Positions 45,014 through 48,762 of a stretch of 48,762 nt of DNA are shown piece after piece (the stretch's first letter is position 1; each line of letters begins with the position of its first letter). The notes below the pieces were generated by a model that worked only from the letters and a program-made list of their open reading frames with translations, was not told the origin of the DNA and ran no database searches. The DNA is from Candidatus Cloacimonadota bacterium (GTDB lineage: Bacteria > Cloacimonadota > Cloacimonadia > Cloacimonadales > Cloacimonadaceae), in contig JAHDQK010000017.1 in assembly GCA_018433885.1 (NCBI GenBank), positions 1 through 48,762 on the forward strand, in the 5' to 3' direction. A program made the position numbers and the translations under genes.

Positions 45014-47683
45014 ATGATGATAACTCTTTTCCGCAATCTCTTTCTTCTGCTGTTGGAGCTTACGCAGAGCCCCATTGCAGCGCTTCTGTTACTCTCGCTG
45101 ATAACCGGGGCTTTGATGCATATCCTAAACAGGATTTTTGCTATGTTTCCCAAACGCGAAGCACATATAACGAGCATCATGGAACCCCAGATCTGGGAAA
45201 TTAACAGGGTTTATCGCGGGGGAGAAGCGCAATACCGGATATCACGGCTCTACAAACGCTATCGATATCATCCGATCCTTGCTCTGCGTTCCGCCTTGCC
45301 GCTGTTCTTTCAACTGCCATTTCTCTTTGCCGTGTATCACGCGCTCAAGGACTTACCGGAATTGGCGGGAGTAAGTGTAGGGATCATTCGGGATCTTTCT
45401 CAACCGGATTCTATGATATTGGGCTACAATATCTTACCATTTGTAATGACAGGGGTCAATCTGCTAACGGCTGTTTTTACACCAGGGTTCCGGCTGAAGG
45501 ATATGTTTCGCGCATTCGCGATCGCAATGCTCTTCTTGGCACTACTTTACAAGGCGCCATCCGCACTGTTGATTTACTGGACAACAAACAATCTCATCTT
45601 CCTCGTGAGAGTATTTATTCAACGGTTCTCAGCCAAGGAAAGCGGGAGACCTAGGGATAATGTTTCCAGCGTAATTGGGGGCTATTTACCTGATCTTCAG
45701 CGGAAGCTTCTGCTACCGTTTGTATTACTGATCTTTCTAATGAATTTGTTTCAGTATCTCGCCGATGGCGAGGGGATCTTTATCTACAGGTTTTCAAAGA
45801 CCGTACCGCTATTGCTGGCGAGTTTTGCGGGCGCTTTCCTGACGTTGAAAAACGGTCATTTTCCACGCAAGAAACTGGGGTTAGCGATATTGGCTATACC
45901 GCTTCCGCTAGTAATCTTGGCGCACCTTACAGGGATCTATCTGATTCCATCCCAGCGCTATGTGATATTTGCTTGGCTGGCAGGCTTTTATCTGTTAATT
46001 TGCGTTATTCTCGCGGGGTATCAATGGGTGGTCTTCAGAAAAAATGATTCACATGGCGGAAACGCTCTGCGCAAAATCCCACTCTCCAGCGGGACGGCCT
46101 TGATAAGAGTTGTTTTGCTGTTTACTCCATCCTTGCATCTAGCGGCGTCCAATCCGGGTTATCTGAGTGCTTGGTTTTATCCACTTTTCTTGCTGTTACC
46201 GTTTATAATATTTGCGTTAGCATGGTTTGTTTTGCGGCTGGTAGATGCCTTTATTCCTGCTGGATTTCGGGATGGCAGGTTAAACATCGATTTCGCCCTA
46301 AGCTTCTCTGTGCTATTCTGTTATCTTCCGGTGATCCGGGCAATGATGCAAAAAAACAGCGCGCACGATGGGGATTTCTGGGTAATATTGCTGGTTACGA
46401 TGCTAATTATCTGGCTATATTATAAAAAGCAACAGGATGTATCATGTGCAGCTCCAGCGGCACCTCCAGCGGGAAGCGAGATCACAGCCGCGCAGGGGTC
46501 ATCAAATGTATCCCTTATAAAAGCTAATCGCGCACCGCGCATAATAGCCGTGCTAAACATTCTTATCATAGTGCTGTTTATTAGCGCGCTAGGGAATTTC
46601 GGCAAGACTCTCATCCAGGGAGAACGTGAATCCACCAGGCAATTGCAAGAAATTCCGGAGCTACTACAGAATTTGAAAATTAAAGAGAAGCCCAATATCT
46701 ATCTTTTTGTGTACGATGGTCTGCCCAATCCCAGGGTTTTTAAAGATCAAGATCTGCCTCTGGAGCCGATGCAGGAACTCTTCGACAAATATGGGTATAA
46801 GGTATATGATGATACCTATACGATCGGAAATGAAAGCCTGAATAGCATGGCTATGACGCTGAATATCAGCGACGAACAATACGAATCCATGAACGAAATG
46901 CAGGAGATTTACAGCGGTAATTCCGTGGTAAATCTTTTCCTTACCGGAGCTGGATACGGTAGCTATAATCTTTTGGAAAATTACTTTACGGGAACCTATG
47001 CGATCACAAATGAGGATCTGGTAACGGAATACTTCCCCCCCAAAGAGCTCACGGCTGTGCAAAGCGATTTTTTCCTGACCCTGCTGCGGGGTGTTTTTCA
47101 GGGTGAATTTCGCTTCGATACCAAAGGGATAATGGTTGCGGATCAATATACCGAAGCGGATCGGCAGAACCGGAAACATGAACTTATCCGCGATGGGAAT
47201 TCTCCAAAGTTCGTGATAGATCAGGTTTCCAAGCCAAGTCATTCGCAAAACTCCGGGCAATGCCTTCCCAACGAGACAGAACTTTGGATCGAGCGCTATG
47301 AGCAAGCGCTTGAGTATCTGGAGCGCGATCTGGAGGCTTTGGAGGAGCATGATCCCGAGGCTATCGCAGTTTTCATCGGAGATCATGGACCATCCCTATT
47401 GGGGGATTGCTACGTGCTTCAGAACTGGAAGCTGGAGGATATCACCCCCGAACTCATGTGGGACCGCATTGGCACCATGGTAGCCGTCAAATGGCCGGAT
47501 CCCGCCCGAGCTGCGAAATATGATCAGAACCTTACTCTCAATCAAGACCTCTTCCCCGTCATATTCTCCTACCTTGCCGATGATCCCGCCCCCCTGGAAC
47601 TGATGCCGGATCGAACCTTCAGCGGCTATGAACTGCTGACCAGACCGGCGGTAAAGTTCAGAGAAGGGAGGATGGTTGATTAG
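45014..47683 (+). CDS. Fusion of YidC/Oxa1-like membrane domain with sulfatase/phosphoglycerol-transferase-like domain
   Basis: This is an 889-aa polytopic protein. Residues about 15-205 resemble the YidC/Oxa1/Alb3 core: RYHPILALRSALPLFFQLPF, LGYNILPFVMTGVNLL and YKAPSALLIYWTTNNLIFL match its TM2-TM5 region. Several more membrane helices follow (about 230-470), then an Ala/Pro-rich loop, one last helix (510-527) and a periplasmic domain of the alkaline-phosphatase/sulfatase superfamily from 558: KPNIYLFVYDGLP (D568), a candidate nucleophile in IGNESLNSM, and IGDHGPSL (D790-H791). LtaS, MdoB and EptA share this domain and transfer phospho-groups to envelope glycans. Two ATGs open the frame and neither has a ribosome-binding site. 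The stop codon lies at the first unit of the repeat array. Confidence 0.85.
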   Translation: MMITLFRNLFLLLLELTQSPIAALLLLSLITGALMHILNRIFAMFPKREAHITSIMEPQIWEINRVYRGGEAQYRISRLYKRYRYHPILALRSALPLFFQLPFLFAVYHALKDLPELAGVSVGIIRDLSQPDSMILGYNILPFVMTGVNLLTAVFTPGFRLKDMFRAFAIAMLFLALLYKAPSALLIYWTTNNLIFLVRVFIQRFSAKESGRPRDNVSSVIGGYLPDLQRKLLLPFVLLIFLMNLFQYLADGEGIFIYRFSKTVPLLLASFAGAFLTLKNGHFPRKKLGLAILAIPLPLVILAHLTGIYLIPSQRYVIFAWLAGFYLLICVILAGYQWVVFRKNDSHGGNALRKIPLSSGTALIRVVLLFTPSLHLAASNPGYLSAWFYPLFLLLPFIIFALAWFVLRLVDAFIPAGFRDGRLNIDFALSFSVLFCYLPVIRAMMQKNSAHDGDFWVILLVTMLIIWLYYKKQQDVSCAAPAAPPAGSEITAAQGSSNVSLIKANRAPRIIAVLNILIIVLFISALGNFGKTLIQGERESTRQLQEIPELLQNLKIKEKPNIYLFVYDGLPNPRVFKDQDLPLEPMQELFDKYGYKVYDDTYTIGNESLNSMAMTLNISDEQYESMNEMQEIYSGNSVVNLFLTGAGYGSYNLLENYFTGTYAITNEDLVTEYFPPKELTAVQSDFFLTLLRGVFQGEFRFDTKGIMVADQYTEADRQNRKHELIRDGNSPKFVIDQVSKPSHSQNSGQCLPNETELWIERYEQALEYLERDLEALEEHDPEAIAVFIGDHGPSLLGDCYVLQNWKLEDITPELMWDRIGTMVAVKWPDPARAAKYDQNLTLNQDLFPVIFSYLADDPAPLELMPDRTFSGYELLTRPAVKFREGRMVD

Positions 47684-47864
47684 TGCGTAGTGCTTAGTGC
47701 GTAGTGCGTAGTTGGCGGCTGTTTAGTGCTTAGTGCTTAGTTCGTAGTGCTTAGTTGGCGGCTGTTTAGTGCTTAGTGCTTAGTGCGTAGTGCTTAGTTG
47801 GCGGCTGTTTAGTGCTTAGTGCTTAGTGCGTAGTGCTTAGTGCGTAGTTGGCGGCCTTCGGCCG
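47681..47864 (+). repeat. Hierarchical tandem array of the heptamer TAGTGCT/TAGTGCG
   Basis: Beginning at the stop codon of the fusion gene, the array reads four heptamers, then a 15-bp spacer (TAGTTGGCGGCTGTT), four heptamers, spacer, four heptamers, spacer, five heptamers, and a final TAGTTGGCGGCC leading into the hairpin GGCC-TTC-GGCC. The spacers start at 47709, 47752, 47795 and 47845, giving super-units of 43, 43 and 50 bp. Most heptamers end in T or G; one reads TAGTTCG. The exact 7-bp step between 43 and 50 shows that copy number changes by whole heptamers. Confidence 0.97.
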
Positions 47865-48196
47865 GTGGATGCTCAGGCTTCGCCTTCGCGTTTAATGGGC
47901 TTCGCGTTATGCGTAATGCTGGTGTATCTCGTTTCTTTCACCCCACAAAATAGCTGCGCAATTTTGCGGGGGCCCCGATCTCTGGCACGTTTTCGTTATT
48001 GCGCCTCTCCTGAGGCGTCAATTATGCGGCTGATGGCCGTACCCACTCCACCCCGAACTCCGGCACTCTGACGGCATTTGGACTATCCTATTACTATCTG
48101 AAATATCGTTCCTCCGTGACTCTGCTCGCTAAAACTCGCTGTTTAATTTTTCCAATAACAGGCACAAATTTGAACAATAAAATTGAGGTGAACCAA
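47865..48196 (+). other. Hairpin-rich non-coding stretch before the four-helix-bundle gene
   Basis: These 332 bp hold no credible gene but several perfect dyads: CGCAA-TT-TTGCG (47957-47968), CGCCTC-TCCT-GAGGCG (48002-48017) and CGGC-TGATG-GCCG just after. The phrase CTTCGCG occurs twice near 47883-47908. It could be the structured 5' region of the next gene's mRNA or a separate small RNA. I see no good promoter. The last 40 bp are AT-rich and end in the ribosome-binding site GAGGTG. Confidence 0.4.
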
Positions 48197-48565
48197 ATGA
48201 GATTAGATTCTTTTACGGATATTGAAGCTTGGAAAAAAGCCAGAACGTTGGTAAGTCAGATTTATGAGATTTGCAGAACTCAAGAGATCAAACATGATTA
48301 CGGATTCAAGGACCAGATTCAACGAGCCGGAGTATCAATTATGGCAAATATAGCGGAAGGGTTTGACGGAGGCTCCACCAATTCCTTCAAGCTGTTTTTA
48401 TCTTATGCATATCGTTCAGCCTCAGAAGTAGAATCACTTCTGTATGTAGCTCTTGATATCAAATACATCGATGATGCTACCTTTCAAAAACTGGTCACCC
48501 AAACTCAAGAAACCAAGAAACTGATCGGCGGATTCATCCGCTATCTAAACTCAAAAAAATCCTAA
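48197..48565 (+). CDS. Four-helix-bundle protein (S23 / Avd-like, TIGR02436 type)
   Basis: This 122-aa protein belongs to the family first known from intervening sequences in 23S rRNA genes and related to the Avd accessory protein of diversity-generating retroelements. Family marks are DIEAWKKARTLVSQIYEI at the N-terminus, FKDQIQRAGVSIMANIAEGF in the second helix, LSYAYRSASEVESLLYVAL in the third, and LGGF-like LIGGFIRYL at the end. It should form a basic homopentameric bundle that can bind nucleic acid. The ATG has GAGGTG seven bases before it; an upstream in-frame ATG at 48116 lacks one. No reverse transcriptase or rRNA gene is near, and the gene lies between two inverted repeat arrays. Confidence 0.93.
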   Translation: MRLDSFTDIEAWKKARTLVSQIYEICRTQEIKHDYGFKDQIQRAGVSIMANIAEGFDGGSTNSFKLFLSYAYRSASEVESLLYVALDIKYIDDATFQKLVTQTQETKKLIGGFIRYLNSKKS

Positions 48566-48633
48566 CTCCAAACTAACAACGTGCAAAATGCATTAACCGA
48601 CTGCCCGAAAGGAAAAAAGCAACAGTCTAATCC

Positions 48634-48762
48634 CGTCGCCAACTAAGCACTAAGCACTACGCACTAGTACCAACCGTGCGCAGCACACCACTGACGCGCA
48701 GCGTCGCCAACTAAGCACTAAGCACTACGCACTAGTACCAACCGTGCGCAGCACACCACTGA
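48634..48762 (-). repeat. 68-bp tandem repeat with inverted heptamers, running off the window
   Basis: Copy 1 spans 48634-48701 and copy 2 48702-48762, identical over all 61 shared bases and cut by the window end. On the minus strand each unit contains TAGTGCG, TAGTGCT, TAGTGCT and TAGTTGGCGACG in that order, the same words as the left array. The rest of the unit has two dyads with the same GCA loop, GTGC-GCA-GCAC and GACGC-GCA-GCGTC, the second spanning the junction of two units. Confidence 0.95.

Follow-up and report, generated by a model that had tools for sequence, protein, structure and literature searches.

Near the right end of contig JAHDQK010000017.1 of a Candidatus Cloacimonadota bacterium (assembly GCA_018433885.1), whose whole 48,762 nucleotides we call the window, a gene for a protein of the S23 family (PF05635, "23S rRNA intervening sequence"; IVP hereafter) lies between two inverted arrays of a short tandem repeat. 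IVP genes from many phyla have such arrays, nearly always with matched periods and usually in inverted orientation, and their repeat unit co-varies with the protein. On balance, we think that an IVP gene and its two arrays form one compact mobile element of ~0.5–1 kb whose protein would recognise its own array, similarly to repetitive extragenic palindrome (REP) doublets and their tyrosine transposases (REPIN/RAYT) but with no known transposase.

The window gene matched PF05635 (E 2.5e-32, 111.7 bits against a cut-off of 33.8), the sole match of a profile search in which no HUH/IS200-like tyrosine transposase was found, and also the TIGR02436 model (109.9 bits against a cut-off of 24). The arrays consist of TAGTGCK heptamers (K, T or G), which occur 28 times in the window against 7.0 expected, a number reached in 0 of 100 shuffles; 22 of the 28 matches form two clusters, 16 on the forward strand at 47681–47844 and six on the reverse strand at 48646–48734. 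That such arrays lie on both sides of the gene in opposite orientation had been described in an earlier note on this DNA. The inverted arms are up to 30 nt long and 97% complementary, so that, as in 23S rRNA intervening sequences, complementary termini enclose an S23p open reading frame (ORF). In agreement with the same note, no transposase or reverse transcriptase was found among the ORFs adjoining the gene, on the right side as far as the contig end. No rRNA lies at the element, which follows a protein gene, and an Rfam search of the window gave only one tRNA.

Tandem arrays accompany IVP genes across phyla

We analysed 178 PF05635 genes picked by protein score alone, 94 from the phylum (125 genomes, 102 of them with PF05635) and 84 from many phyla and from Methanophagales archaea. 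For the cross-phylum set, an IVP alignment was run once against 84,980 species genomes and gave 80 loci in Pseudomonadota, Bacteroidota, Planctomycetota, Acidobacteriota, Nitrospirota, Chloroflexota, Bacillota, Omnitrophota, Hydrogenedentota, candidate phyla and Methanophagales. Choosing by score biases the sample towards high-scoring IVPs, and some loci are orthologous. Arrays were called with a custom-built detector whose thresholds, set by eye, yield almost nothing at other periods when kept identical; neighbouring genes were derived from ORFs, not from annotation.

A tandem array of 6–9-bp units was present within 300 bp of ~84% of the 178 IVP genes. With a stricter cut (7- or 8-bp array within 300 bp), 59 of 84 IVP genes (70%) but only 21 of 142 control ORFs on the same contigs (15%) had one (odds ratio 13.6, p = 3e-17), and across phyla the array density 0–50 bp from the gene was ~50-fold that of the 1.5–3 kb background, which bears out the enrichment that the earlier note had proposed to look for. 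Lag-7 density in the cross-phylum set was 1.37 per kb near the genes and 0.16 per kb far from them, and array bases at lag 7 dropped with distance, from 261 per kb within 0–50 bp to 2–5 per kb past 200 bp, with control lags at about zero. Plasmid-borne IVPs of cyanobacteria and Riemerella showed the same layout of gene plus arrays.

The two arrays of a locus nearly always share their period. In the phylum set (n = 94, up to 300 bp on each side) we counted 24 pairs of 7/7, 21 of 8/8 and two of 6/6, 32 one-sided loci, 15 loci with no array and no mixed pair; in the cross-phylum set, where 69 of 84 genes had an array within 300 bp, 26 pairs were 7/7, six 8/8 and two mixed, so that mixed periods account for two of 81 pairs over both sets. 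Near phylum IVP genes, lag 7 was found 28 times upstream and 24 times downstream and lag 8 23 and 26 times, while lags 4 and 5 were never found and lags 9–13 at most three times; lags 4, 5 and 9–13 were almost empty in the cross-phylum set too. Two-sided arrays were inverted in 42 cases and direct in five in the phylum (n = 47), at least some of the direct ones within multi-array clusters, and inverted in 27 and direct in five across phyla. One conceivable origin of such arrays is polymerase slippage, to which the surplus of heptamers has been tentatively ascribed in the literature (cited in PMC4692102 and PMC4679880), with IVP genes inserting by chance into microsatellites that were already there. 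We regard this as very improbable: a gene that had entered an existing array should have flanks in direct orientation, whereas flanks are inverted rather than direct by 69:10 over both sets, other periods are nearly absent near IVP genes, and the inverted flanks together with the co-variation of unit and protein (below) already contradict it.

Array length peaks at about four units (roughly 24–35 nt) for both periods, though the detector admits shorter arrays, and units have one or two variable positions, the remainder being nearly fixed. Left and right arrays of one locus share 5-mers at 0.53 when inverted and 0.17 when direct, compared with 0.05 between loci. Units of 6 bp or 9 bp occur with a few IVPs (L111, L071, L128; L073, L099, L112); the period is therefore not restricted to 7 and 8. 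At one locus (L041/L069, G089:C5), two IVPs ~3 kb apart stand amid clusters of arrays built on several words (CGGGATT, CCCAGTA, CCAATCA, CGTGAGT), an arrangement that looks as though elements had inserted into one another's arrays.

The heptamer on which the earlier note had centred proved real as an array and not special as a word: TAGTGCT was rejected as an element signature, each IVP having its own word and most TAGTGNN arrays lying away from IVPs. In the control built into this search, the reversed pattern picks up the same heptamer in a shifted register, so that this control is compromised. Two other candidates were also rejected, namely a GCGAAGC/GCTTCGC mini-hairpin as a common part of the element (0.22 vs 0.19 per kb, not enriched) and phages as carriers (0 matches among 50,697 phage records).

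The repeat unit co-varies with the protein

Mapped on a phylogeny of 176 IVPs, the 7/8 label needs 11 changes, compared with 36 when shuffled (minimum 28), and the difference persists among representatives below 70% identity (12 vs 30) and below 60% (11 vs 21). The correlation between protein and unit (Mantel r 0.18) was reached in 0 of 1000 permutations, and unit 5-mer sharing is 0.65 for IVP pairs of at least 80% identity vs ~0.05 below 50%. The residues that best separate 7-bp from 8-bp IVPs cluster near the C-terminus, at positions 106–110 of L001, which should correspond to the last helix.

All of this co-variation could in principle reflect joint descent, and below 50% identity the period signal is weak (8 changes vs 10.0 shuffled). 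The arrays could be mere ends moved by host or foreign enzymes, with an IVP that serves some other purpose and recognises nothing. We consider such a passenger role quite improbable, since the equality of periods on both sides over many different words, the gene-less arrays with the local unit (below) and the clustering of residues at positions 106–110 all favour recognition.

Units spread beyond the gene

The genome of the window has a second IVP, between pglX and pglZ of a bacteriophage exclusion (BREX) operon, and every TTAGGNN array found in that genome, where gene-less arrays were sought with two patterns, lies within 5 kb of this gene, a confinement that also speaks against pre-existing microsatellites. 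The pglX gene itself contains three in-frame inserts made of TTAGGNN (14, 31 and 23 aa), including one inverted pair; three homologues lack them. Dispersed copies of the window's own TAGTGCT unit were not found in the same genome. In another genome, G034, two relatives of this second IVP (L049 and L070, compared with L001) retain the TTAGGNN unit at unrelated flanks; TTAGGNN matches there number 182, and neighbouring arrays are convergent rather than divergent by 7:1, two of the seven being the IVP elements themselves. Over the phylum, TTAGGNN arrays occur in seven of eight genomes with that IVP clade and in 26 of 117 without it (p = 3.5e-4); within one genus (g1), the two carriers of the clade have 16 and 50 matches and ten other genomes 0 or 1. 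Of 41 distant arrays, 15 agree in unit with their own IVP, against 2.4%.

We read these unit-matched solo arrays as gene-less satellites of IVPs. The earlier note had named arrays lying mostly at unrelated loci as a finding that would count against a tie between protein and repeats, and this finding is made in part, in that most TAGTGNN arrays of the phylum do not lie beside an IVP. Co-variation, unit-matched gene-less arrays and the occurrence of the same element at unrelated sites thus lend support to the suggestion that IVPs bind or spread their repeats, and from these sequence patterns we infer that the array is recognised by its IVP and that the element moves.

The site of the window's element holds different IVP elements in related genomes, which also supports mobility. 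Downstream (3') of the homologous 889-aa gene, relatives have either another IVP subfamily (G038, G035), a 73% identical IVP with altered units (G040) or no IVP (G041, G043), and on account of the different subfamilies we rejected the idea of one ancestral insertion that has stayed where it was. At the site homologous to the window's (L259, G040:C79, and L258), a composite 15-bp period (GTTCTTA + GTGCAGGA) adjoins CCAAGAA/CCCAGAA heptamers, possibly reflecting unit turnover or a 7+8 composite.

IVPs were also seen in defence operons. The BREX locus L255 (G000:C84:4000-20000) is of type 1, with brxC, a PDDEXK nuclease, pglX, the IVP, pglZ, brxL and a RecQ-like PsyrT-type helicase; its heptamer-coded peptides are LGVRGLGVR and LKPNTQNL as in-frame inserts in pglX and an LKPNTQNL stretch in brxL. 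Three array-bearing IVPs (L309, L310, L312) lie in CRISPR-Cas operons, between cas6 and cas4 in two cyanobacteria (one beside type I-D cas1d) and between cas10 and cmr3 of a type III-B system. A survey lists the IVP as a novel CRISPR association (PMC10910872), which array-bearing IVPs within cas operons may explain.

Polarity and a possible role in RNA

The gene-ward strand of the arrays is G-rich in 177 cases and C-rich in 26, and an IVP between two co-directional neighbours lies on their strand in 85 cases and on the opposite strand in eight; with both ratios so skewed, the polarity of arrays and IVP is fixed relative to transcription. This agrees with a device that acts on RNA, in which the arrays would be binding sites or stem arms of the transcript and the IVP would control the processing or translation of the operon, spread being secondary; the inverted arrays might act as an RNase III stem through which the IVP segment is excised or separated, on the model of 23S rRNA intervening sequences. 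When the window is folded as RNA the arrays pair around the IVP gene (z −9.1), RNase III cuts the GACAGAT-bearing Coxiella intervening sequence in vitro (PMC4990558), and the TAACTGA heptamers of Beggiatoaceae stand directly before start codons, where a post-transcriptional regulator was suggested to act on them (PMC4679880). Taken alone, an RNA device leaves unexplained the gene-less arrays in the coding sequence of PglX and the 182 matches in G034, and we rate it as unlikely in that form, though it is the main rival of the mobile element, is compatible with it and may coexist with it.

Comparison with known systems

The closest functional counterpart of the IVP element is REPIN/RAYT. In both, inverted repeats of the gene's own class stand on either side of it (PMC3116915), inverted doublets are dispersed (for IVPs in G034 and pglX) and each gene has its own flavour of repeat; mobilisation in trans, moreover, has been proposed for REPs (PMC3116915). 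RAYTs, however, are tyrosine transposases related to IS200, whereas IVPs are four-helix bundles for which no catalysis is known; the units of REPs are short palindromes, in contrast to the non-palindromic 6–9-bp words that IVP arrays hold in tandem; and across IVP families it is period and inversion that are conserved, not any sequence, unlike REP. Since the tyrosine transposase that defines RAYTs is missing, the IVP system is not a RAYT member.

The intervening sequence of Coxiella 23S rRNA shares with the window element the protein family, the complementary termini and, directly before S23p, three to four GACAGAT heptamers, which were handled as a local feature (PMC4990558). It sits in rRNA whereas the window's element is intergenic, and the IVP element would be the general form of which 23S rRNA intervening sequences are a special instance. 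The earlier note's appeal to the history of the family in such sequences and in Avd thus holds for kinship, but the window element lies outside rRNA and the one reverse transcriptase of its genome is beside an IVP that has no arrays.

Other known heptamers, those of Xanthomonas (GGGAATC), Nostoc (GGGGA(C/T)T), Beggiatoaceae and the cyanobacterial short tandemly repeated repetitive (STRR) sequences, resemble IVP arrays in being tandem, intergenic, often in convergent pairs and built on a lineage-specific word; the tandem 7-bp unit of the STRR type is found in the window and in arrays of cyanobacterial plasmid IVPs. Rehm et al. found no general association of the Xanthomonas and Nostoc heptamers with mobile elements (PMC4692102). 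TAACTGA of Beggiatoaceae and cyanobacteria was judged to have spread horizontally by a mechanism that was not evident, and S1, Csp and CsrA were weighed by MacGregor as its binders (PMC4679880); neither paper names an IVP-type protein. In Xanthomonas, the IVP (family of XCC0516, PDB 2GSC) has inverted GGGAATC-like units on both sides and, judging from the flanking protein ends, would lie between accB and accC. GGGAATC is the heptamer that Rehm et al. described genome-wide, and three exact GATTCCC in a row were found 84, 40 and 49 times in three Xanthomonas genomes and not at all in seven others. The published orphan heptamers GGGAATC of Xanthomonas and GACAGAT of Coxiella fit the IVP pattern.

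Avd of diversity-generating retroelements has a homologous fold and works on nucleic acid. These retroelements differ in that no reverse transcriptase or template and variable repeats were seen beside array-bearing IVPs (in the window, to the contig end on the right). The sole reverse transcriptase (RVT_1) of the window's genome, at C87:71689-72291, lies 226 bp from a third, weak IVP match (72518-72808; L003) that has no arrays, and the interval C87:71689-72808 is likely a diversity-generating retroelement with its Avd. A reverse transcriptase or other polymerase encoded elsewhere could write the arrays in trans, with an Avd-like IVP supplying recognition; the relation of the family to Avd (PMC10053308) and the proximity of that enzyme to an IVP fit such a cofactor, but this third IVP is array-less and the two array-bearing ones have no reverse transcriptase in view, so that we find the idea improbable. 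An array-less IVP beside a reverse transcriptase is as expected if Avd is a branch that works differently.

A search of the open-licence PMC literature, preprints excluded, found no prior description of an IVP-array element, so an unseen report is possible.

Layout of the window

The left array has a higher-order unit of 43 bp, closed by TAGTTGGCGGC; its period-7 tract was detected at 47680–47848. The 889-aa gene upstream has a 60KD_IMP domain and ends in a TAG derived from the array, a point absent from the earlier note. The spacer between left array and IVP gene is longer than in most relatives, where 0–100 bp is typical. The contig stops within the right repeat, and the element is therefore seen up to there, its right flank lying beyond the contig. 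At the other end of the window is a CRISPR-like array of seven GTTTCAATCCTTGTTTTAATGGATGGATGGGTAAAGAC copies at 73–75-bp spacing with unique spacers, just downstream of the contig start.

Table 1 Coordinates of features in the window.
Feature	Position	Strand	Remark
CRISPR-like array	21–517
889-aa gene	45014–47683
Left array	47680–47856	+	TAGTGC(T/G) heptamers, period 7, four blocks each closed by TAGTTGGCGGC
TAG stop codon of the 889-aa gene	47681–47683	+	from the first left-array unit
Non-coding spacer	47857–48196		left array to IVP gene; GC-rich hairpins
IVP gene	48197–48565	+	S23/Avd-like, 122 aa, four-helix bundle; PF05635 and TIGR02436
Direct repeat, 68 bp, perfect	48634–48762		encloses both right arrays; contig terminates inside
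Right array, copy 1	48642–48666	−	inverted relative to left array
Right array, copy 2	48710–48734	−

Discussion

If IVP genes and their arrays are mobile elements, an IVP oligomer (the solved relatives 2GSC and 2RLD have five chains each as deposited) would recognise about four consecutive units, probably on single-stranded DNA or RNA, with its C-terminal helix reading the unit. Convergent arrays would then pair and bring the ends of the element together, and the element and gene-less array pairs would be copied to nearby and later to distant sites, as is thought for REPINs by RAYTs, with cutting and copying steps taken from host enzymes. Intervening sequences of 23S rRNA would be copies that landed in rRNA.

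Several observations weigh against this proposal. We know of no catalytic domain in IVPs. About 16% of the sampled IVP genes have no detectable array, and only 3 of ~24 TAGTGNN array sites of the phylum have an IVP within 1 kb. Neither a target-site duplication nor a clean empty site was found at the related-genome sites, which have other IVP elements or no IVP. The period signal fades among distant proteins, and much of the co-variation would follow simply from gene and arrays being inherited together.

A bolder version, which we put forward tentatively and rather doubt, is that IVPs are unit-specific writers of repeats, each reading a 6–9-nt word and, with host enzymes, planting and lengthening arrays near its own gene and then throughout the genome. 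If so, the family would be a main source of prokaryotic heptamer and octamer microsatellites and of 23S rRNA intervening sequences. The mobile-element proposal predicts which DNA word each IVP should recognise, and well over 100 natural protein-word pairs make it directly testable. Where an IVP gene lies within a cas or BREX operon, it may have inserted there and play no part in defence. IVP elements are a probable source of unexplained seven-letter repeats in many bacterial genomes, and three puzzles kept apart in the literature would be joined: the excess of heptamers, the origin of 23S rRNA intervening sequences and the role of a widespread family whose only name comes from its fold.

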